Source: a virus
DNA length: 20,264 nt
Reading direction: 5' to 3' (one strand)
IMG/VR virus record: IMGVR_UViG_3300020193_000641
Location: 1-20,264 of that record
Every line of letters begins with the position of its first letter. Position 1 is the stretch's first letter. The position numbers and the translations under genes are program-made. This document shows, one piece after another, positions 188 to 14,488 of this stretch. The notes below the pieces were generated by a model, which saw only the letters and a list, made by a program, of their open reading frames with translations, was not told where the DNA came from and did no database searches.

Positions 188-540
188 ACCCATCGTCGTA
201 CGTCGGCCCTGATCGGCGAAGTCTAGCGATGTCTAAGCTGAACGTATGGATGGAGGGGATTGGGATTCATTACTTCTCTTTTGTCAATGCATCTCCAGAC
301 CCAGGAGTCGCTCGAGTTAGGGACGTTCAGTGGGACGTGCTCGAGAAGTGTCTCGCTTACGAGTACGACGCGGTCCTGTCTCTAGGCGGGTTTGCTTCTA
401 GAATCCTGCAGCGCCTGGGCGCGCGTCACTTTAGGCTGCCGCACCCGTCTGGACTAAATAGGCAACTTAACGATTCTGAATATGTAAGGAGAGTCCTCTC
501 GGAATGTCGAGACTATATAACTGATGGCCGACATGGGTAA
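154..540 (+). CDS. Uracil-DNA glycosylase-superfamily-like protein
   Basis: This is a 128-residue protein. An N-terminal beta strand leads into V-V-G-M-N-P-S (residues 8-14), resembling motif 1 of the uracil-DNA glycosylase superfamily (GxxPS/GxNPS). Near the C terminus is L-P-H-P-S-G-L-N-R, which resembles the HPS motif 2 that holds the catalytic/intercalating histidine region. Between them V-L-S-L-G-G-F-A is a typical strand-turn element of the fold. At 128 residues it is shorter than classical UDGs (about 220) and closer to compact family-4/5-like or inactive phage relatives. It is embedded between the deaminase and the HAD gene with overlaps on both sides. A role in removing or sensing uracil or other altered bases is inference. 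ATG 184 inside the motif is an unlikely alternative start. Confidence 0.55.
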   Translation: MHGIHVLVVGMNPSSYVGPDRRSLAMSKLNVWMEGIGIHYFSFVNASPDPGVARVRDVQWDVLEKCLAYEYDAVLSLGGFASRILQRLGARHFRLPHPSGLNRQLNDSEYVRRVLSECRDYITDGRHG

Positions 541-1069
541 GAGTAAGCTAACCAAGCTTGTCACTGACGTTGACGGTGTGCTGACGACCGGTGGGCACTA
601 CTACAGCATTGATGGAAAGTGCTTTAAAAACTTTGCGTCGCACGACGCCGACGCGATTAAGATTCTAGAAGCTCTTGGCATAGAGGTAGTGGCCGTCACC
701 GCCGATAAGAGGGGGCTAGATATATCCAAAGCTCGAGCGCGCGACCTCGGCATCAAGTTATACTACGTACCGGAGAAGGAGCGGCTGTCTTGGTTTTTGG
801 AGAACTGTGACTCGGGCACTACAGCATTCATTGGAGACGGCCTGTGGGACGTTCCCGTCTTACAGGAAGCGCTAGTGTCATTTGCTCCAGCAGACGCTAC
901 TCGAGAGGCTAAGTTGGCCGCTGACCACATTCTATCTACGCGCGGCGGTTGCGGCGTCATTCTAGACGTCCTTCGTGTAATTGCCGATACTTACTTTCCA
1001 GAGCTTACGTTCGTTGACTCTCGTGGTATATTATGTCTAAGAGTCAAAAATCTTCCAGCGACGAGGTAG
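524..1069 (+). CDS. HAD-superfamily phosphatase, KdsC-like (C0/C1-capless type)
   Basis: This is a 181-residue protein with the HAD motifs in order: T-D-V-D-G-V-L-T at 14-21 (nucleophile D15, acid/base D17), the motif II threonine at T59, and I-G-D-G-L-W-D at 103-109 for magnesium binding. The arrangement and the sequence K-x-F-x-x-x-D-A-x-A-I resemble KdsC-type sugar-phosphate phosphatases and the HAD domains fused to acylneuraminate cytidylyltransferases. The usual TGR after motif II is replaced by T-A-D-K-R-G, a variant worth noting. Such enzymes remove phosphate from sugar phosphates in glycan precursor synthesis. The start overlaps the UDG-like gene; ATG 533 is an equally possible start. 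It is followed after one base by the nucleotidyltransferase-kinase fusion, which supports a joint sugar or small-molecule activation pathway. Confidence 0.72.
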   Translation: MADMGKSKLTKLVTDVDGVLTTGGHYYSIDGKCFKNFASHDADAIKILEALGIEVVAVTADKRGLDISKARARDLGIKLYYVPEKERLSWFLENCDSGTTAFIGDGLWDVPVLQEALVSFAPADATREAKLAADHILSTRGGCGVILDVLRVIADTYFPELTFVDSRGILCLRVKNLPATR

Positions 1070-1070
1070 C

Positions 1071-2669
1071 ATGTACAAGGTAGTAATTCCGAGCGCCGGT
1101 CTCGGCAGTCGCGTCGGTCCATACACTAAGTTCATCAACAAGGCGCTTATAACGATCGCGGGTCGCCCAGCGATCTCTCACGTCATTACTAAGTTTGACT
1201 CAAGGGTCGAGATCGTCATCCTTCTCGGTTACAAGGGAAGCTACGTCCGCCAGGTAGTCGAGGCCTTGCATGGGGATAGATCAATCACTTATGTAGACGT
1301 CGATAAGTTCCAGGGTCCAGGAAGTGGCCTTGGTTACTCAATGCTGTGCGCCGAGAAGCACCTTCAGTGCCCGTTCATATTTGTCGCAAACGATACCATC
1401 GTACCCATCGATAATATTAACATCAATCCGACGAGAGGTAACTGGATCGGATACTTTAAGAATGACGGCACATATGATTTACCGCAGTATCGTACTCTCG
1501 AAATAGAAGACGGCATCGTTTCTAAAGTCAATCCTAAAGGTGTCGATTGCAACGACATCTATATCGGCGCGGCTGGAATACGAGACTGGCAGCTGTTCTG
1601 GAATATGATGCATGATCCAAATGCAATCGAGATCGGCGAAGCATATGGTCTACAAGCACTGCGAAACGCGAGGGCCGTTGAGATGCCGTCCTGGTGTGAT
1701 ACCGGAAACATGATGGCTCTAGAGAAGACTAAGAAAAGGTTTGGCGCGCCCGAGCACAACGTCCTCGAGAAGGAGTCTGAGGCCATATGGTTTTTGAAAG
1801 ACCGAGTGATAAAGTTCTCAACCGACGAGTCCTTCATCAGAGATAGACTGCTCCGTGTGGAATGGTCGGCACTACCATTAAAAATGCTTCCAAAAATCGT
1901 AAGGAGCGACACGAATCTATATGTGTACGAGAAAGCTCGCGGAAAGATGCTCAGCGAGACACTCGATGCACGGACCTTTCATAGCCTCTTTACAGAGATG
2001 CGTCCGTTCTGGGTAAACGCCGACTTGGAAGCAAGCGTCATTGAGAATGCTAGGAGCAGGATCATCGATGCATCGATGGAATTTTATAAGACCAAGACTG
2101 AACAGCGACTCGAGACGTTTCTAAAAAGGTTCGAGGTAGTAGACCAGACCGAGCAAGTAAACGGCATCTCAACTCTACCGGCTAGACAACTACTAGAGTA
2201 TATAGACTGGAAGTGGCTGACTGAGACTGTATCCGTAGGCGGATTTCACGGTGACTTTCATTGCGAGAATATCGTCGAGACTGACTCAGGTCAGTTCATC
2301 CTACTTGACTGGAGGCAGAACTTCGGTAACGGCAATTACATGCTCGGGGACGTCTACTACGATCTAGCTAAGTTCTATCACGGTCTAGTGGTACCGCACT
2401 CGATGATCTACCGCGGCGAGTTCGAGACGCGAGCTTGGAATGGTGGAATTAGAGTCGACGTTAAGCGCCCAAATAGATTCGTAGAAGTTGCTGAGAAATT
2501 CTGCGAGTGGGTCGAGAACGAAGACTTCTCTATGAAGAAGATACGCACGCTTGCTGCACTGATATATATCAACAGCTCGGCCCTGCACGAGCATGAATTT
2601 GCAGTGTTTCTATACTACTTTGGTCGGTATCAGTTGCAGAGGCTTAATGATGAATATATTGATAGGTAA
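1071..2669 (+). CDS. Bifunctional nucleotidyltransferase / APH-like small-molecule kinase fusion
   Basis: This is a 532-residue two-domain protein. Residues 1 to about 230 form a nucleotidyltransferase: S-A-G-L-G-S-R at 8-14 is the nucleotide-binding loop, followed by K-F-x-N-K-A-L and later V-A-N-D-T-I, the metal-binding acidic turn. The C-terminal half, from about residue 240, is an aminoglycoside/choline-kinase-like fold with the Brenner motif H393-G-D-F-H-x-E-N, where D395 is the predicted catalytic base, and D413-W-R in place of the usual DFD/DWE metal motif. Such fusions phosphorylate a small molecule and activate it as an NDP or CDP derivative (sugar, choline or amino-acid type). The substrate is unknown. 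A GAGG ribosome site at 1063-1066 precedes ATG 1071. The gene overlaps the downstream glycosyltransferase, so the activated donor may feed that enzyme. Confidence 0.75.
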   Translation: MYKVVIPSAGLGSRVGPYTKFINKALITIAGRPAISHVITKFDSRVEIVILLGYKGSYVRQVVEALHGDRSITYVDVDKFQGPGSGLGYSMLCAEKHLQCPFIFVANDTIVPIDNININPTRGNWIGYFKNDGTYDLPQYRTLEIEDGIVSKVNPKGVDCNDIYIGAAGIRDWQLFWNMMHDPNAIEIGEAYGLQALRNARAVEMPSWCDTGNMMALEKTKKRFGAPEHNVLEKESEAIWFLKDRVIKFSTDESFIRDRLLRVEWSALPLKMLPKIVRSDTNLYVYEKARGKMLSETLDARTFHSLFTEMRPFWVNADLEASVIENARSRIIDASMEFYKTKTEQRLETFLKRFEVVDQTEQVNGISTLPARQLLEYIDWKWLTETVSVGGFHGDFHCENIVETDSGQFILLDWRQNFGNGNYMLGDVYYDLAKFYHGLVVPHSMIYRGEFETRAWNGGIRVDVKRPNRFVEVAEKFCEWVENEDFSMKKIRTLAALIYINSSALHEHEFAVFLYYFGRYQLQRLNDEYIDR

Positions 2670-3912
2670 GTTGGGTCGCGTTATTTTCTTTGATAAGAGC
2701 AAGTGGTCAACATACGCTGGCGACGAGGAAGGCCCACTCCTCTACACGATGCTCGCTAAGCGGTATCCCCAGCATACGTTCTATCTAGCGGGAAGGTCGG
2801 ACATTAAGAAGTACAGGGCCAAGAGGTATAAGACTTCTTGGTTCGACGATGAGTCGACGACGGACATCGGCATTCCCGACAACATCGTCGACCTCTTCAA
2901 TGAGTGTCCGCCGAGTAAGATGACCTACAAGGACGTGTTCAGCGAGCACGACGTGCACCTGTGGCTCGCCGACCACGTTCGCGAGAGGGGCTTGCGGTTC
3001 GATGCCGGCATTATGTACCAGGGTCCGACTGGAGCAGTCGGAATACCTAACGTTGGAATCAAGACACTAAAAGAGCATACCCTAGCCAAGCCGCTGGTCA
3101 TGTTCTCGTGGTACTACGCTCCGCCGATGCATCTTCTCAACGTGACTAATATACCGTACATCCTACTCGTCAGCGATCCGAGGTACGTTCCGCTCGAGCA
3201 GAGAGACGTGACAAATGACGAGCGAGCCATCCTAAGTCAAATCAATATCACTAAGACTAAACCCAGGATCGTCAGCTATGAAGACTCATTAAACCTACGC
3301 AAGGTTAAGCTGAGATACGAGTATGCCGGAATCGAGACGGTGTTCCTCCTCGGCGAGAAGCGAGTCGACTTTCGAAAAGTCAAGAAGGATAAGCTCTTCG
3401 TCATGGGTCTGAACTCTGGAGGCATACAGTCAGACCGACCAGCGATCGTCAAGTCGTGGCTGTTGGACACAGAGCGTGGTCGAGACGTCAAGATCTATGG
3501 CGCGTGGGAGGATGATATCGTCGCTCAGTACCCAGGTCGGTTTGAGAACAAGGGCATCTCAGAGGTCGCCGATGAATTCTGGCGATCTAAGTACACGCTG
3601 ATCCCCCCGTTCTTCAACAAGCTGAGCGGATTCGTGACTCAGAAGTTTTGGAAAATGATCTTTTACGGGATCGTCCCGTTCTTCCATCCAATGTACGACA
3701 CCGATCGCATATTCGACGTGCCTGAGGTCCTTCGCGTTAAGAGTCCGGCCGAGATGTGGAGGAACATCGACAGACTCGAGTCCAACCCGCGCGAGTATGA
3801 AGCCGTCCTACAGCACCTGTGGGAGATGCTCAACGATGGTTACTACAACGGAGAATATCTATCCAATCGCATCGCGAGCGCGCTCGAGACGCACGCTGGC
3901 ATAAAGCTCTAG
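2650..3912 (+). CDS. Putative GT-B-fold glycosyltransferase
   Basis: This is a 420-residue protein overlapping the previous gene by 20 bases. ATG 2650 was chosen because AGAGG at 2638-2642 lies 7 bases upstream; ATG 2647 is also possible. It has no signal peptide or membrane segment. The C-terminal third shows a GT-B-like second Rossmann domain: K-L-F-V-M-G-L-N-S-G-G, then K-I-Y-G-A-W, F-E-N-K-G-I-S, and the stretch K-Y-T-L-I-P-P-F-F-N-K-L-S-G-F leading to F-W-K-M-I-F-Y-G-I-V-P. That arrangement is typical of the donor-binding site of family-1-like and phage DNA glucosyltransferases. The acceptor is not visible from sequence. Position between an NDP-donor-making fusion and a DNA methyltransferase makes DNA glycosylation a tempting inference; transfer to a virion or surface glycan is the alternative. 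Confidence 0.6.
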   Translation: MNILIGKLGRVIFFDKSKWSTYAGDEEGPLLYTMLAKRYPQHTFYLAGRSDIKKYRAKRYKTSWFDDESTTDIGIPDNIVDLFNECPPSKMTYKDVFSEHDVHLWLADHVRERGLRFDAGIMYQGPTGAVGIPNVGIKTLKEHTLAKPLVMFSWYYAPPMHLLNVTNIPYILLVSDPRYVPLEQRDVTNDERAILSQINITKTKPRIVSYEDSLNLRKVKLRYEYAGIETVFLLGEKRVDFRKVKKDKLFVMGLNSGGIQSDRPAIVKSWLLDTERGRDVKIYGAWEDDIVAQYPGRFENKGISEVADEFWRSKYTLIPPFFNKLSGFVTQKFWKMIFYGIVPFFHPMYDTDRIFDVPEVLRVKSPAEMWRNIDRLESNPREYEAVLQHLWEMLNDGYYNGEYLSNRIASALETHAGIKL

Positions 3913-3920
3913 GAGGAAAG

Positions 3921-5144
3921 GTGACTACCAACCTAACCCACGCGTCGATCATCCCGCTCATCGGTGGAGAGACCATCGGCTCAGAGCGCGCCTTCGGTAA
4001 GCGACCTGAGTACTTCCTGTCGTACTCTCCGTTCTCAGCCAACGACTCGCACATCGTCAACTGGTACGAGAACGAGGTTCCGTACCTGCTCATAGACGAG
4101 GGGGCTACCTTTCCAAAGAGAGTGAACGTAGTGTCCGCGGTGTGCCCGTGCGCTGGTCTGTCGCAGATGTCTTTCGACTTCGGAGACCACAACCCAAACA
4201 ACAAGTGGATGGAGACCACGGCGCAGTACGTCCTGAGCGAGATGAAGCCTGATGTATTCTGGGGAGAGAACGCGCCTGGGTTCGCGTCGAACATCGGCAA
4301 GAACGTTCGCGAGAAGCTGCGGTCCATCGCCGCCGAGAACGGCTACACGATGACTGTCTACCGCACTAGGTCTCTCCTCCACGGCCAGCCTCAGATCCGC
4401 GAGCGGTCCTTCTACTTCTTTTGGAGGGGGACTAAGACGCCGGTCCTAAACTACTACGACCGACCGCACCGTAAGATCGAGGACGTCATCATCGAGGCGT
4501 CTCGCGCGAACAGTCAGCAGGAGCCGATCAACAAGAAGACTCCGTCTCGAGACGACATACACTACAGGTTCATCCTCGAGGAGCTTCACGGCGGAATGTC
4601 GCACCGAGAGTTCGTTGAGAAGGTCGATCCAAAGGACGTGCGGCGCAGCGACTCGTTCACCTACATACAGAACATCGGAGTCGACTTGCAGCGCCTCGCG
4701 GACTGGCTCAGGAAGGAGGGCCACGACAAGGAGGCCGACAAGACTCTTCGAAAGAAGGCTAAGCTCGACAGCGGCAAGGGCGTGATGCGTCGCGGCACTA
4801 TGATCCCGAAGGACTACATCGGTGCTTTTGTCGGTCACTACCCGACGATGCTCACGCACCCCGTCGAGGACAGGTACATCTCTTACCGTGAGGCCATGTC
4901 AATCATGGGTCTTCCGGAGAGCTTCGAGCTGCTCAATCCGACTAAGAGCGTCAACCACATCTGTCAGAACGTTCCTGTTCAGACCGCGCAGGACATGGCC
5001 GAAGAGGTCGTCGCCGCGCTCGAGGGCAAGCGAGAGTGGATTGACGCAAAGTATGTCTTTCAGCGCAACCACGACCAGTCCGTGATAGTTGGATCTAGAG
5101 GCAAGGTTGAATCAACTCCTAGTCTGGAATCATATCTTTCCTAA
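3921..5144 (+). CDS. Divergent DNA cytosine-C5 methyltransferase-like protein
   Basis: This is a 407-residue protein. GTG 3921 is preceded by a strong AGGAGG at 3911-3916 that overlaps the stop of the glycosyltransferase. C5-methyltransferase motifs appear in order: an N-terminal motif I-like I-P-L-I-G-G-x-x-I-G, motif IV C-P-C-A-G-L-S with the predicted nucleophile C77, motif VI-like W-G-E-N-A-P near residues 113-118, motif VIII Q158-I-R-E-R, a central variable region, and motif X-like Q-N-V-P-V near the C terminus. The family transfers a one-carbon group to C5 of cytosine in DNA. PCAG for PCQG, ENA for ENV and QNVPV for GNAVP are non-canonical, so a different substrate or product is conceivable. 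No restriction endonuclease is adjacent. It ends the 1-5144 gene run and is followed by a terminator. Confidence 0.75.
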   Translation: MTTNLTHASIIPLIGGETIGSERAFGKRPEYFLSYSPFSANDSHIVNWYENEVPYLLIDEGATFPKRVNVVSAVCPCAGLSQMSFDFGDHNPNNKWMETTAQYVLSEMKPDVFWGENAPGFASNIGKNVREKLRSIAAENGYTMTVYRTRSLLHGQPQIRERSFYFFWRGTKTPVLNYYDRPHRKIEDVIIEASRANSQQEPINKKTPSRDDIHYRFILEELHGGMSHREFVEKVDPKDVRRSDSFTYIQNIGVDLQRLADWLRKEGHDKEADKTLRKKAKLDSGKGVMRRGTMIPKDYIGAFVGHYPTMLTHPVEDRYISYREAMSIMGLPESFELLNPTKSVNHICQNVPVQTAQDMAEEVVAALEGKREWIDAKYVFQRNHDQSVIVGSRGKVESTPSLESYLS

Positions 5145-5302: not shown

Positions 5303-5357
5303 CTGAATATGGTCGATGGATCGATCAGAATGCAACATGCAACATATGGAGATATAC

Positions 5358-5651
5358 GTGTCTGACACTAACACTATCAATACCACCACGCCTTCCGTGA
5401 ACGAACACGGCTTCATTCTAAAGAAGCCTTCCAAGGTCGCCAAGGCTCCGAAGGTCGCCAAGGCTCCGAAGGTCGCCAAGGTCGCCAAGACTCCACGCGT
5501 GACTAAGATGTCTCGCGCGCTCGACGTCTTCCGTGCCAATAAAGACTCGCCGCTCAAGGACGTTCAGGCCAAGATCGCGGATGAGCTTGGTGTCGGTTTT
5601 GAGCGTGCCTACGGCTATGTTCGGGCCATCGTTACTAACAAGCTCGCCTAG
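5358..5651 (+). CDS. Small histone-H1-like basic protein with AKAPKV repeats and C-terminal helical domain
   Basis: This is a protein of 97 residues. GTG 5358 is preferred because GGAG at 5348-5351 lies 6 bases upstream and the protein then begins M-S-D-T-N; in-frame ATGs at 5316 and 5346 lack good ribosome sites. After a polar N terminus, residues of the type K-V-A-K-A-P repeat (encoded by 5433-5486), giving a lysine/alanine/proline-rich tail like that of eukaryotic H1 or bacterial H1-like proteins. The last 45 residues look like a compact helical domain with a winged-helix flavour (L-D-V-F-R-A-N, I-A-D-E-L-G-V). A DNA-binding or compaction role is inferred from charge and composition only. 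It stands alone between a terminator and a set of palindromes. Confidence 0.75.
   Translation: MSDTNTINTTTPSVNEHGFILKKPSKVAKAPKVAKAPKVAKVAKTPRVTKMSRALDVFRANKDSPLKDVQAKIADELGVGFERAYGYVRAIVTNKLA
5433..5486 (+). repeat. In-frame tandem repeat within the H1-like gene
   Basis: The 18-base unit AAGGTCGCCAAGGCTCCG occurs at 5433-5450 and 5451-5468, followed by two copies of its first 9 bases at 5469-5477 and 5478-5486. The 9-base periodicity encodes K-V-A / K-A-P triplets, so repeat number could change by slippage without breaking the frame. Confidence 0.85.
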
Positions 5652-6278: not shown

Positions 6279-8300
6279 GTGAGGGACGTTGTACTGAACA
6301 CTCTGGCAAGGCTTCTGGCCACAGAGAACATTGACATTCGCCACGGTAATGGTGGCACGACCGATGCATACTTCGACGTTGAGAAAAGAATTCTAACACT
6401 TCCTAAGTTCAGCGACGTGGATGAAGAGAGGTACATCATGTACCTGGTCCACGAAGTCTCGCATGCGATCTATACTCCGACTAAGGAGTGGACGAATCTT
6501 ATTGCGGCCGATCCTAGTATTAAGACTTACGTAAACATAGTCGAAGATGCTCGGATTGAGCGACTGATTAAGAAGCGCTACCCAGGCACTCGCGTCGATC
6601 TTGCCCGTGGCTACAAGAAGTTCCACGCTATGGATGCGTTCAATCTCTCAAATCTCGGCGACCGTAAGATGTCTCTTATAGACCGCCTCAATATTCGAGC
6701 CAAGATCGGCGCTTACTATGTCGTTAACTTTGGAGACGACGAGCTCGAGTTTGTTGAGCGGTTCGACACGCTATCCACTTGGGACGAAGCCGTAACTCTA
6801 GCTATGAATCTGCGATCTCATGCCCAGCGAGTCTCGCGAGGCATCGAGCAGACTGGCAACAGAGCGCCGTCGTCTGACAAGGATCTCTCAGAGAGCTCTA
6901 GCGGTGATCTGATTGAAGACCAGAAGAACGATAATAGCGACAGCACTAGAGATGACACTGCTTCAGTCGATGCAGATCCGTTTACTCAGGATAGCTTCGA
7001 TAAGACACTTGCTAAAGACATCGTTAAGTCTCGCTCTAGGTTTAGCGAGAATGTAATCAAGATCGACTACTCAAAGTTCGACTACAAGCACTACGTGACT
7101 CCATTACGAGATCATATCGAGTATCTGCGAAATAATCCAAACTACCGTGCTCAGTTTGAAACTAGCGTTGCAGCGACGTACTCGCCCGAGGCATTGCCTA
7201 AGTTCAACTCTAAGAATCGCACGACAGTCGCCTACCTCCTCAAGGAGTTTGAGACTAAGCGAGCCGCGGACGTATTATCTCGAGCGCGAGACGCTAAGAC
7301 TGGTGTTCTGAGTCCGAATAAACTCCACCTCTATAAGTTCAGTGAGGACTTATTCAAGAAGACCATGGTAATTCCGGAGGGCAAGTCCCACGGCTTAGTT
7401 ATGTTTGTCGACTTTTCCAGCTCGATGCACCTATACATCGAGCAGGTCATCGAGCAGCTCGTGATGCTCGTGTCCTTCTGTCGTAGCGCCGGCATTAAGC
7501 ACCGAGTCTTCTCGTTTACTCAGAGGTATAACGAACGCTACGGCGCCCTGCCTACTGTCAGGGCTATGATGCGAGCGTCTTTTCCAAGTGTCGACTACAT
7601 CGATCCAAACACGGATCTCCTAGAGCTCTTCTCCGACGAGATGACCGGGCGCGACTTCTCATTAGTTGCTTCTGCTCTATTAACTAGTGTCGGTAAAGGC
7701 TTCGCTCTCTATACAATGGGACGAACTCCGCTCGACAGTACGATCATTCTTGCCAGACCAATCGTTAGAGAATTTAAAGCGAGGACTGGGGCCCAGTGCG
7801 TGAGCGTCGTGTTTCTAACCGACGGCGATAGCGACAATCCGAATCACGACATTCGGTACGTCATCGATGGAGACACGCGTCAGGAGTTGCCAAGTACAAG
7901 TACTGTGTCTAATGGCACGTCTAATAACATATTCAGATTTTCTGACTACACCGACCGCCTCATTCGAAACCTTCGCGCAGTCCTCGGAGTAGAGGTAATA
8001 AACTTTAGGATATGCGAAAAGGACCGCCACCTCAAATATATTCTCACCGAAAACATGAGGCGCGAATTCACACGGACCGGCTGTGTCAGTGTACCAGAGG
8101 CACGTGGATTCAGTACGCAGCATTTTATCACGGCTAAGATGCTCAGGGCCAACTCCAAGTCTGACTGGTTCGAAGATGCAGTCACGGATAGGCAGGTTGC
8201 GAGGGCGTTCGCTAAGGGAAGTGCCAATCGCCTTCGTACCAGGTACATTCTCAGCGACTTTGTGACTCGGATCTCTAAGCCGCTTAAGAATGTTGGTTGA
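6279..8300 (+). CDS. cobT: CobT-like protein: zincin-type metallopeptidase domain plus von Willebrand factor A domain
   Basis: This is a 673-residue protein with a GTG start behind AGGAG (6268-6272). Its N-terminal domain carries H58-E-V-S-H62, a zinc metallopeptidase HExxH, and N-I-V-E89-D-A-R-I-E, the third-ligand motif commonly found with it. A Ser/Asp-rich linker (about residues 195-245) follows. The C-terminal VWA domain has the MIDAS motif D378-F-S-S-S382 and F-L-T-D515-G-D-S. This architecture is seen in CobT-like partners of MoxR/CobS ATPases, including in T4-like phages. Despite the name, cobalamin synthesis is not implied, since cobaltochelatase CobN is not seen here. The pair more likely remodels a protein complex; zinc peptidase activity is a family-based prediction. 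The stop codon lies inside the -35 box for the next gene. Confidence 0.8.
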   Translation: MRDVVLNTLARLLATENIDIRHGNGGTTDAYFDVEKRILTLPKFSDVDEERYIMYLVHEVSHAIYTPTKEWTNLIAADPSIKTYVNIVEDARIERLIKKRYPGTRVDLARGYKKFHAMDAFNLSNLGDRKMSLIDRLNIRAKIGAYYVVNFGDDELEFVERFDTLSTWDEAVTLAMNLRSHAQRVSRGIEQTGNRAPSSDKDLSESSSGDLIEDQKNDNSDSTRDDTASVDADPFTQDSFDKTLAKDIVKSRSRFSENVIKIDYSKFDYKHYVTPLRDHIEYLRNNPNYRAQFETSVAATYSPEALPKFNSKNRTTVAYLLKEFETKRAADVLSRARDAKTGVLSPNKLHLYKFSEDLFKKTMVIPEGKSHGLVMFVDFSSSMHLYIEQVIEQLVMLVSFCRSAGIKHRVFSFTQRYNERYGALPTVRAMMRASFPSVDYIDPNTDLLELFSDEMTGRDFSLVASALLTSVGKGFALYTMGRTPLDSTIILARPIVREFKARTGAQCVSVVFLTDGDSDNPNHDIRYVIDGDTRQELPSTSTVSNGTSNNIFRFSDYTDRLIRNLRAVLGVEVINFRICEKDRHLKYILTENMRREFTRTGCVSVPEARGFSTQHFITAKMLRANSKSDWFEDAVTDRQVARAFAKGSANRLRTRYILSDFVTRISKPLKNVG

Positions 8301-8325: not shown

Positions 8326-8349
8326 ATTAATATCAATATGGAGAGAGCT

Positions 8350-9534
8350 ATGCTCACAAGTGATCAGAAAGAAGCCTTCATCGCCGCTGCGACTGCCAAG
8401 TTTGGTTCCAACGGCACCATCACGTCTAAGCAGGTCAAGGAACTCGCCGCAGCCATGAATATGCCGATCCCATCGGTCATCTGGCGCGATCGCGTCTCTA
8501 AGGGTACGTTTCGCATCCCGCCGTCTGCGGCCGTATCTCCAGCTGCGGTCATAGTCCCGTTCAGCCCTCCCGCGACCAAGCCAGTTTCTGCCACTAAGTT
8601 TGATCCAAACGCCGAGACGTCGCATACTTATGCGGCCATTCCCGGCACCGACGAGTTCTTTGTGCCGTTCGGCGACTTTAAGACTCTAACTCGAATCGTG
8701 GCGTCGAGTGAGTTTTTTCCGGTCTATATCTCCGGTGACTCTGGAAACGGTAAGACTCTCATGGTCGAGCAATCGTGCGCTGCCCGAAAGCGAGCCATGA
8801 TTAGAGTCCAAGTCTCGCGTGAGACCGACGAGGACGATCTCATCGGTGGATTCCGACTCATCGGTGGCGAGACTAAGTTTGTCAAGGGTCCGGTCATTCG
8901 AGCGATGGAGCTCGGCGCAGTTCTTCTAATCGACGAGCTCGACCGAGCCGACCCAACAAAGATCATGTGCCTACAGGGAATCTTAGAGGGTAAGCCATAC
9001 TTTATCAAGAAGACCGGAGAGGTGGTTTGTTCAACTCACGGCTTCAATGTGATCGTGACTGCCAATACCCTTGGTCGAGGAGCTAGCGACGGTCGATACA
9101 CCGCTGCTACGATCCTAGACGACGCATTCCTCGAGCGCATGCCCGTGACCCTGCTGCACTCGCATCCGAGTGAATCCATCGAGATACGTATCCTTTCTGG
9201 CCGCCTCTGCGGATCGATTGGGTGCTCGGCCGCTGAGAGCTCTATCGTGGCTGACCTGGTCAAGTGGGCGAATATCATTCGCACTACTTTTGCCGACGGT
9301 GGCGTGAGCGACACGATCTCGACTCGCCGCCTCGTGCACATCGTCAACACATACCGCCTCGTGCAGTCTATCAAGACTGCAATCGAACTCTGCACTAACA
9401 GATTCGATGAGGAGACTAAGACGACTTTCTTAGAGCTTTGGGACCGCGTCACCGCTGTTGTGACGCCCCAGACCCAATCCGCGCCTGACACACAGTCGGT
9501 GCCGGATGCGGCTGCCACACCGGCGTCGGTGTAG
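8350..9534 (+). CDS. cobS: MoxR/CobS-type AAA+ ATPase
   Basis: This is a 394-residue protein. ATG 8350 is chosen because GGAGAG at 8340-8345 lies 4 bases upstream; ATG 8338 has no ribosome site and lies about 6 bases after the predicted transcript start. Residues 1-45 form a helical N-terminal region, followed by a Pro/Ala-rich linker. The AAA+ core has Walker A G129-D-S-G-N-G-K-T136, Walker B L-L-I-D195-E196-L-D-R-A-D, a sensor 1-like V-T-A-N-T, and F-L-E-R-M-P as an arginine-finger region. A low-complexity Ala/Pro/Thr/Gln tail ends the protein. Cyanophages and rhizobial T4-like phages carry the same family, usually annotated cobS. With the VWA-zincin protein encoded immediately upstream it forms the standard MoxR-VWA pair. 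Chaperone-like remodelling of a virion or replication complex is inference; cobalt chelation is unlikely. Confidence 0.85.
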   Translation: MLTSDQKEAFIAAATAKFGSNGTITSKQVKELAAAMNMPIPSVIWRDRVSKGTFRIPPSAAVSPAAVIVPFSPPATKPVSATKFDPNAETSHTYAAIPGTDEFFVPFGDFKTLTRIVASSEFFPVYISGDSGNGKTLMVEQSCAARKRAMIRVQVSRETDEDDLIGGFRLIGGETKFVKGPVIRAMELGAVLLIDELDRADPTKIMCLQGILEGKPYFIKKTGEVVCSTHGFNVIVTANTLGRGASDGRYTAATILDDAFLERMPVTLLHSHPSESIEIRILSGRLCGSIGCSAAESSIVADLVKWANIIRTTFADGGVSDTISTRRLVHIVNTYRLVQSIKTAIELCTNRFDEETKTTFLELWDRVTAVVTPQTQSAPDTQSVPDAAATPASV

Positions 9535-13044: not shown

Positions 13045-13417
13045 GTCGCCCGAAGACTTTCTAAAAGTCCGAGAGACGCTGACTCGCATAGGTATAGCGT
13101 CTAAGAAAGACAAGAGGCTCTACCAGTCCTGCCACATACTTCATAAGCGAGGCCGCTACTTCATCGTTCACTTTAAAGAACTGTTCATGCTCGATGGAAA
13201 GCCCACAGACTTTTCCGACGACGACGCGGCTCGACGAAACACAATAGCCAACTTACTGAGTGAGTGGAAGCTTGTAGACTTAGTGAGCACCGCTAACCTA
13301 GAACCGACGGCGCCGATCTCTCAGATCAAGGTGCTAACTCACAGAGAGAAGCCTGAGTGGATCCTAGAAACAAAGTATCAGATCGGAAAGAAGAGGATGT
13401 CCGATGAGCGCAGCTGA
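13025..13417 (+). CDS. regA: RegA translational repressor
   Basis: This is a 130-residue protein strongly resembling T4 RegA (122 residues): K-S-P-E-D-F-L-K-V-R-E-T-L-T-R-I-G, then L-Y-Q-S-C-H-I-L, then Y-F-I-V-H-F-K-E-L-F-M-L-D-G-K, and a C-terminal W-I-L-E-T-K-Y. RegA binds the start region of several phage early mRNAs, including clamp and clamp-loader genes in T4, and blocks initiation. ATG 13025 aligns with the T4 start; ATG 13004 (with GAGAGG upstream) would add seven residues. The gene overlaps gp62 by 20 bases. The short C-terminal extension beyond the T4 length ends K-K-R-M-S-D-E-R-S and overlaps the dps start. Confidence 0.93.
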   Translation: MVEVRLKSPEDFLKVRETLTRIGIASKKDKRLYQSCHILHKRGRYFIVHFKELFMLDGKPTDFSDDDAARRNTIANLLSEWKLVDLVSTANLEPTAPISQIKVLTHREKPEWILETKYQIGKKRMSDERS

Positions 13418-13841
13418 CACGATGAAGACGTACTTTGCTACGTCTTTTGCGTTCTACCTAAAGACTCACTACTACCATTGGAACATTGAGGGAGAAGATT
13501 TTCCTCAGTACCATAAGCTTCTCGAGGACGCCTATGTCGAGGTGTATTCGGCACTCGACGCGGCGGCTGAGTTCATTCGTACTCTGGGTCAGTACGCGCC
13601 GGGATCGTTTAACCGCTTCATCGAGCTGTCTCGAGTTCAAGACGCGACGACCGTGCCACCTGCTAAGGACATGTTGCAGCAGCTTCTTACCGATAATGCC
13701 AAGGTCCTTGAGACTATCCGCGATGCGTACGACTCGGCGGAGGCGGAGGGCGAGCATGGTTTGTCAAACTTTCTCGCGGACCGCCAAGCAGCTCATAAAA
13801 AGTTGCAGTGGTTCCTGATGTCTACTCTAAAAAATAGTTGA
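13404..13841 (+). CDS. dps: Dps-family ferritin-like protein
   Basis: This is a 145-residue protein with ATG 13404 overlapping the regA end and AGAGG at 13392-13396 upstream. The ferroxidase signature is complete with E. coli Dps spacing: H25 (in H-W-N), H37, E41, D52 and E56, equivalent to H51, H63, D67, D78 and E82, with a conservative Asp-to-Glu change. The rest is helical, as expected for a four-helix bundle. It is shorter than E. coli Dps (167 residues) and lacks an obvious lysine-rich DNA-binding N-terminal tail. Dps dodecamers oxidise and store iron using peroxide and protect DNA. Placement on the replication transcript suggests expression during DNA synthesis. Its stop codon is inside the -35 box of the hsp20 promoter. 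Confidence 0.85.
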   Translation: MSAADTMKTYFATSFAFYLKTHYYHWNIEGEDFPQYHKLLEDAYVEVYSALDAAAEFIRTLGQYAPGSFNRFIELSRVQDATTVPPAKDMLQQLLTDNAKVLETIRDAYDSAEAEGEHGLSNFLADRQAAHKKLQWFLMSTLKNS

Positions 13842-13866
13842 CAAACACCGATCAGTGTATTATATA
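13838..13866 (+). promoter_or_regulatory. Sigma70 promoter for hsp20
   Basis: TTGACA at 13838-13843, a 17-bp spacer and TATATA at 13861-13866. The TGA of dps (13839-13841) sits within the -35 box. Overlapping TATTAT and TATATT options blur the exact start, which is expected near 13871-13873. Confidence 0.82.
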
Positions 13867-13870
13867 TATT

Positions 13871-13931
13871 ATGAGTGACGCTGCTTAACGGGGCGTCAAC
13901 TCATTAACCTTGCTGACACAGGAGGAAACAT
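13871..13931 (+). ncRNA. Putative ROSE-like RNA thermometer in the hsp20 leader
   Basis: Hairpin 1: AUGAGU (13871-13876) plus GACGC (13877-13881) pair with GCGUC (13893-13897) and ACUCAU (13899-13904), an 11-bp stem with one bulged A. Hairpin 2: CCUUGCU at 13908-13914 faces AGGAGG at 13920-13925. The pairs are C-G, C-G, U-A, U-G, a G-G mismatch, an unpaired C, and U-A, closing a five-base loop. UUGCU opposite the Shine-Dalgarno with a G-G pair is the defining core of ROSE thermometers on ibpA-type genes, and the gene controlled here is of that type. The start codon is the weak TTG at 13932. Folding was done by eye. Confidence 0.6.
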
Positions 13932-14402
13932 TTGACTAGCTATATGTGGGATCGTAAGTTACTAGACCCGTTCTTCGTCGGATTCGACGAAATGCTTGAT
14001 CGACTCGGTCGCATGGACATCGGCAAGCTAAAAGCCTCAACCAACTACCCGCCATACAATATTCGAAAGGTATCCGACAACAACTACGTTATCGAGCTCG
14101 CAGTCGCTGGGTTCGGTAAGGCCGACATCGACGTGACAATCGATGGCGGAACTCTCACCATCACCGGTGGAGTCAAGAGTGATTCAGAAAACCAAGTATA
14201 CCTCTTCAAGGGCATAGCTGATCGCTCATTCAAGCGCAGCTTTACCGTTGCAGATACTATCGAGATTCGTAACGCGGAGCTTATGAATGGTATGCTACGC
14301 GTGTGGCTCGAGAACATGATTCCCGACCACAAGAAGCCTCGTAAAATCGCTGTAACTGATTCAGTTGAGACTGTATCTAAGAAGCAGATGCTCACTGAGT
14401 AG
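13932..14402 (+). CDS. hsp20: Small heat-shock protein (IbpA/Hsp20 class A)
   Basis: This is a 156-residue protein. TTG 13932 follows AGGAGG (13920-13925) with 6 bases spacing; ATG 13944 is too far from any ribosome site. The alpha-crystallin domain spans about residues 38-140, opening Y-P-P-Y-N-I-R-K and V-I-E-L-A-V-A-G-F, the hallmark of class A (IbpA-like) proteins. N-G-M-L-R-V-W-L-E is the G-x-L motif at its end, followed by K-K-P-R-K-I, an I-x-I/V-like tail. Such proteins bind unfolding proteins without ATP. Hsp20 is a near-core accessory gene in T4-like phages of cyanobacteria and some alphaproteobacteria, perhaps aiding capsid or tail folding. Expression is predicted from its own sigma70 promoter with thermometer control, and a strong terminator follows. 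Confidence 0.92.
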   Translation: MTSYMWDRKLLDPFFVGFDEMLDRLGRMDIGKLKASTNYPPYNIRKVSDNNYVIELAVAGFGKADIDVTIDGGTLTITGGVKSDSENQVYLFKGIADRSFKRSFTVADTIEIRNAELMNGMLRVWLENMIPDHKKPRKIAVTDSVETVSKKQMLTE

Positions 14403-14465: not shown

Positions 14466-14488
14466 GGGCGGCTTCGGCCGCCCTTTTT
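14466..14488 (+). terminator. Strong rho-independent terminator after hsp20
   Basis: GGGCGGC at 14466-14472, the tetraloop TTCG and GCCGCCC at 14477-14483 form a perfect 7-bp stem followed by five T residues. It isolates hsp20 from the late lysis genes. Confidence 0.93.

Follow-up and report, generated by a model that had tools for sequence, protein, structure and literature searches.

The window analysed here is a stretch of 20,264 nucleotides from a T4-like phage (IMG/VR record IMGVR_UViG_3300020193_000641) that encodes, among others, an IbpA-like small heat-shock protein (Hsp20). According to sequence and fold, the 61-nt leader directly 5' of hsp20 (positions 13871-13931) consists of two hairpins, the second of which covers the Shine-Dalgarno (SD) sequence (Table 1). 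Translation is assigned to the TTG codon at 13932-13934, as the next in-frame ATG (13944) follows AGGAGG by 18 nt and is thus too distant to serve as its start. A ferritin-like (Dps-type) gene (13404-13841) lies directly 5' of hsp20, so that two stress-protection genes are neighbours at this locus.

Table 1 Features of the hsp20 locus. Positions refer to the window; the strand and the basis of each assignment are indicated.
Feature	Position	Strand	Basis and remarks
Sigma70-like promoter (TTGACA 13838-13843, 17-nt spacer, TATATA 13861-13866)	13838-13866	+	Sequence
Hairpin I	13871-13904	+	Fold; conserved core 13877-13897; bulged G at 13883
Hairpin II, proposed thermosensing helix (CCUU-G-CUG-ACA-CAG-GAGG), covers the SD	13908-13925	+	Sequence, fold, 60-sequence alignment, ROSE_3 alignment
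ROSE motif C-C-U-U-G-C-U, G13912 unpaired	13908-13914	+	Sequence; present in relatives
Shine-Dalgarno sequence AGGAGG	13920-13925	+	Sequence; 6 nt 5' of the TTG start
hsp20, IbpA-like class A small heat-shock protein, TTG start, 156 aa	13932-14402	+	Pfam PF00011 (HSP20), E 3.4e-16; homologues
Intrinsic terminator 3' of hsp20	14466-14488	+	Terminator scan

The whole leader folds with -21.8 kcal/mol (z-score of -2.95 compared to shuffled sequence). Hairpin I contributes -17.3 kcal/mol and is composed of an outer stem (AUGAGU/ACUCAU) and an inner stem (GACGCU/GGCGUC), with G13883 bulged below the tip as in the Rfam ROSE_3 consensus. Hairpin II has -4.4 kcal/mol at 37 °C. Its stem is the same as CUUGCUG/CAGGAG of the Pseudomonas aeruginosa ibpA leader, and it contains U(U/C)GCU, the diagnostic motif of ROSE elements (PMC3669281). 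A first-pass annotation made without database searches had proposed a ROSE-like leader composed of a hairpin, a CCUUGCU/AGGAGG helix and a TTG start in front of an ibpA-class gene. These elements and their positions were confirmed, as was the class of the protein, and conservation proved broader than had been claimed. Two details were revised: an additional G13915-C13919 pair closes the stem of hairpin II and reduces the proposed five-base loop to 3 nt, and the proposed G-G mismatch corresponds to the G (G13912) that is bulged or unpaired in the ROSE consensus. The bulged G of hairpin I had not been remarked upon.

The leader meets the structural and positional criteria by which a ROSE element is recognised: a U(U/C)GCU strand pairs with the SD in the 3' hairpin, a G inside this helix is unpaired or G-G paired, a stable hairpin lies upstream, and a small heat-shock gene follows. 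The SD-facing strand and the G are kept in relatives, and the upstream hairpin shows compensatory changes among them. The criterion of the fourU class, four consecutive uridines facing the SD, is not met, as the window has only UU at this place. At the Rfam gathering thresholds no family matched in the window, and 19 related phage loci yielded only tRNAs, with no locus passing ROSE_3. In a listing of weak matches to a 121-nt leader sequence, ROSE_3 (RF02523) ranked first of 4227 Rfam families and was aligned end to end, with a score of 17.0 bits (E 0.13). Since this is below the gathering threshold of 43 bits, we do not file the leader as a ROSE_3 member; it is likely a ROSE-type element that the current Rfam models do not cover. 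A positive control, the ibpA leader of Pseudomonas type in OQ572409, reached 69.2 bits with ROSE_3. This record, named 'Pseudomonas phage Y7', was dropped as a phage case: it is unverified, and the region resembles the ibpA locus of the host. The ibpA-like gene with its full-score leader probably represents host DNA deposited under a phage name.

To describe conservation, we sampled hsp20 loci from IMG/VR and named phages and obtained 73 distinct leaders (72 from viruses or viral contigs and one from Pseudomonas); the gene itself occurs in hundreds of phage records. All 73 show a hairpin followed by YU(U/C/A)GC(U/C), a loop and the SD. The strict pattern U(U/C)GC(U/C) facing the SD was present in 72 of the 73, compared to 4 of 290 other SD-led open reading frames at the same loci, and the motif is therefore beyond chance. 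Almost without exception, the leaders conserve the U(U/C)GCU strand together with the unpaired G of hairpin II. When all leaders were aligned with MAFFT, variable loop lengths led to misplacement of the SD, and a clean 12-sequence seed and model-based alignment were used instead; a 13-protein alignment was too diverse for a genome scan. In the resulting alignment of 60 sequences, 97.1% of the cells were paired (81.9% after shuffling) and changes on both sides of a pair occurred in 88 cells (18 after shuffling). The covariation score was 0.433, compared to 0.155 for shuffled alignments and at most 0.132 for slid partners. These values carry the caveat that the alignment was fitted to the structure and that the sequences are related. 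Compensatory change is found mostly in hairpin I, which is paired in 100% of the cells in relatives and shows such changes in six of its seven pairs. Hairpin II is constrained by the SD, and its outermost pair varies between C-G, U-A and A-U. The U/C position of U(U/C)GCU appeared to be coupled to an extra closing pair of hairpin II (Fisher P 1e-6). This coupling is not used as evidence, as it rests on about seven changes on the tree, does not have enough independent pairs to reach significance and is lacking in bacteria.

A covariance model (R1) was built from a seed of 12 distant phage relatives that excluded the window. Searched against 65 loci (739 kb, both strands), it returned 61 matches of at least 14.3 bits, all of which were hsp20 leaders; no match at this score preceded any other phage gene in the 739 kb. 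The window was recovered at 21.6 bits (E 0.004 in the 739-kb search, E 1e-4 within its own 20 kb), with a match spanning 13876-13933 or 13876-13934. In each of 17 records the best R1 match was the hsp20 leader, and the element was found in 11 of 12 named cyanophages held out by being fetched only after the model had been made. In P-HM2 (GU075905, locus L210) the element is present once the hsp20 start is moved from the annotated site to the ATG at L210:291; for the region L210:218-290, the ROSE leader and the SD indicate this ATG, and the annotated start is probably wrong. With a phage-trained model (R2), 18 of the 19 named phage genomes gave one strong match each, and every one of these matches lay at hsp20; the genomes belong to phages of Synechococcus, Prochlorococcus, Pelagibacter and Methylophilales. 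A weak second R2 match in S-H34 (L220:75-133) was taken as chance, as it lies inside an annotated gene and lacks U(U/C)GCU. Among the named phages tested, S-TIM61 (L218, leader before position 353) alone gave no match. There, the SD reads AAGGUGG and the facing strand CCACGCU (CCAC-G-CU...AG-GUGG), a double change that preserves both the helix and the unpaired G. Thus, the two-hairpin structure, its conservation and its specificity for hsp20 are established.

The same arrangement occurs in bacteria. All 80 of the nearest bacterial hsp20 genes in GTDB, mostly from SAR11 and SAR86, have U(U/C)GCU facing the SD. R2 matched elements in SAR11, SAR86, PS1, a Burkholderiales and an Acetobacteraceae genome and recovered the Rfam-accepted Pseudomonas ROSE_3 element (L202) at 28.4 bits, but missed the P. 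aeruginosa leader of OQ572409 (L128). An Rfam scan of ten bacterial loci accepted only the Pseudomonas one. As an observation in its own right, SAR11, SAR86 and other marine bacteria (GTDB loci L129-L208) carry the short ROSE layout about 60 nt before hsp20, and the ROSE models of Rfam miss those that were scanned; for SAR11, no description of it was found in the literature searched. In the Hsp20 protein tree the window falls within a supported branch whose 49 sequences are all viral; the cyanophages group in a second branch, and SAR11 phages are placed beside SAR11. We infer that transfer from proteobacteria, once or several times, with subsequent long descent within viruses fits best. The phages probably acquired hsp20 together with its thermometer, so that both would have been inherited jointly from a proteobacterial ibpA-like gene. 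Cyanophage Hsp20 was earlier traced to bacterial class A (PMC3827213); the text of that study does not discuss the hsp20 leader.

Among described thermometers, the leader most resembles that of Pseudomonas ibpA (Krajewski et al. 2013, PMC3669281; RF02523). Both have two hairpins only and a 61-nt leader, a bulged G under the tip of hairpin I, U(U/C)GCU with an unpaired G opposite the SD, a G-C pair closing hairpin II and a class A small heat-shock gene downstream. Published hairpin II energies range from -4.1 to -7.6 kcal/mol (PMC3669281), which includes the value calculated for the window. The phage elements differ in being viral, in their low score with the Rfam model, in a usually shorter hairpin I and in their promoters, which are sigma70-like or phage-late, whereas Pseudomonas uses sigma32. 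With the classical ROSE elements of Bradyrhizobium hspA and E. coli and Salmonella ibpA, the leader shares the 3' thermosensing motif and the kind of gene, but those elements have three to four hairpins in a longer leader (PMC3669281). Reported phage thermometers comprise lambda cIII, the fourU element of SPbeta blyA and one predicted sigma70 case; blyA was counted as only the second phage RNA thermometer by a 2024 paper (PMC11182007). Lambda cIII and SPbeta blyA also place temperature-dependent RNA structure at a phage translation start (PMC4166951, PMC10586365, PMC11182007), a dependence that is inferred for the window. In contrast to the leader described here, cIII acts through alternative conformers and closes on warming, both precede other genes, and neither is reported as a family conserved across many phages. 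In line with the first-pass annotation, no phage ROSE element was found in the open-access literature searched, although subscription papers could have been missed.

The first-pass annotation had also assigned hsp20 a strong sigma70 promoter. This was confirmed only in part: TTGACA and TATATA are present, but a consensus promoter scan of the window did not list them, and we therefore judge the promoter to be weak. It predicts an RNA start at about 13872-13877, at the foot of hairpin I or just inside it. Many relatives carry TTGACA...TATATATA or TATAAATA at the corresponding place; by simple pattern, a TATAAATA-like phage-late promoter lies upstream in 43 of the 73 relatives and a TTGAC-type promoter in 19. 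This makes sigma32 control improbable, and heat control would thus be translational. Phage hsp20 transcription is likely uncoupled from sigma32, which is inferred from sequence alone.

Together, these findings suggest that the leader is likely a short two-hairpin ROSE-type RNA thermometer on hsp20, where the temperature response is inferred without phage temperature data. At normal growth temperature, hairpin II would cover the SD and keep translation low; upon warming, the weak helix would open at the unpaired G and ribosomes would translate Hsp20. At the 5' end of the mRNA, hairpin I would remain folded and may aid folding or mRNA stability. Transcription would come from the phage's own late or sigma70-like promoters, leaving heat control to translation rather than to sigma32. 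The short ROSE element of Pseudomonas ibpA behaves in this way: hairpin II melts, hairpin I stays, and reporter expression increases 3- to 8-fold between 25 and 42 °C (PMC3669281). According to ViennaRNA, the SD is less accessible in hsp20 leaders than in those of other genes (P 2e-4); a rise from 20 to 42 °C, however, was not predicted to open it any further than theirs. Likewise, nearest-neighbour accessibility from 10 to 50 °C separated them by lower accessibility only and not by melting. Such calculations ignore the non-canonical pairs that make ROSE elements melt. As probing and reporter data are lacking and nearest-neighbour energies alone predict no melting, the heat-inducible translation of Hsp20 claimed by the first-pass annotation remains an inference for the window and for the phages, as does a role in infection. 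A further point against a thermometer is that many of the phage hosts inhabit waters with small temperature swings, and it is unclear which heat signal a phage would meet.

In an alternative explanation, the leader is mainly a binding site for Hsp20, which would repress its own mRNA until misfolded phage or host proteins titrate it, so that aggregation more than temperature would be sensed. In E. coli, repression of the ROSE-bearing ibpA mRNA by IbpA itself is known, as is a role of this protein as an aggregation sensor. Conservation of the element in phages of thermally stable ocean habitats and its restriction to hsp20, as autoregulation needs, would also fit. However, no sequence feature demands protein binding, and in the Pseudomonas elements temperature alters ribosome binding in vitro without IbpA (PMC3669281). 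As the main function, autoregulation appears unlikely. The two mechanisms are compatible, and autoregulation may still be a live alternative or an addition.

It seems very unlikely that the leader is an inherited, unregulated damper with a 5' stabilising hairpin, which would hold Hsp20 at a fixed low level and hardly open at phage temperatures. This reading is supported by the calculated SD accessibility, which is low and hardly changes between 20 and 42 °C, and hairpin I could shield the 5' end. Yet any complement of the SD would serve as a damper, whereas the unpaired G and U(U/C)GCU are near-invariant, and the calculation omits precisely the pairs behind ROSE melting. Gene order would suggest that the leader is an operator bound by an RNA-binding protein of the phage, for example RegA, as regA lies two genes 5' of hsp20 in the window and immediately 5' in several cyanophages. 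This appears extremely unlikely: bacteria, among them SAR11 and SAR86, also have the element in front of hsp20, as do phages in which hsp20 does not adjoin regA, and the 739-kb search did not find it before other phage genes.

In layout the leader is a short ROSE element of a known kind; new is that such an element is found in viruses, that it is widespread there and too divergent for Rfam, and that it is apparently uncoupled from sigma32. Phage RNA thermometers are rare, and here the same class is found in front of hsp20 in phages infecting cyanobacteria, SAR11 and Methylophilales. Nearly every related marine or freshwater phage examined has the element, and it is possible that many viruses control Hsp20 by temperature. 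If the inferred temperature response is real, water temperature would be linked directly to phage gene expression, and the natural leader variants would represent a ready set for studies of thermometer tuning. Thirteen Prochlorococcus genomes are reported to lack small heat-shock genes (PMC3827213), and phages of this host deliver the gene plus its putative switch. It may be speculated, though we would not yet favour it, that the ROSE-type thermometer belongs to the core regulation of T4-like phages from the sea and from fresh water, that it accompanies them even into hosts lacking any small heat-shock gene, such as Prochlorococcus, and that it is kept for tuning chaperone supply to temperature, or to aggregation via Hsp20 binding, during infection.

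Other genes of the window were noted in passing. A small lysine-rich protein with KVAKAPKVAKAPKVAK repeats and a histone-H1-like composition, without Pfam match, is encoded at 5316-5651. A 673-aa protein (6279-8300) likewise has no Pfam match; we take it, as a guess from its sequence, to be a CobT-type metalloprotease/VWA protein, and it is followed by a gene for an AAA (MoxR/CobS-like) ATPase (8338-9534). The region 524-5144 contains genes for a HAD hydrolase, an NTP-transferase fused to an APH-like kinase, a glycosyltransferase and a C5-cytosine methylase, a run that could represent a surface-sugar or DNA-modification module.
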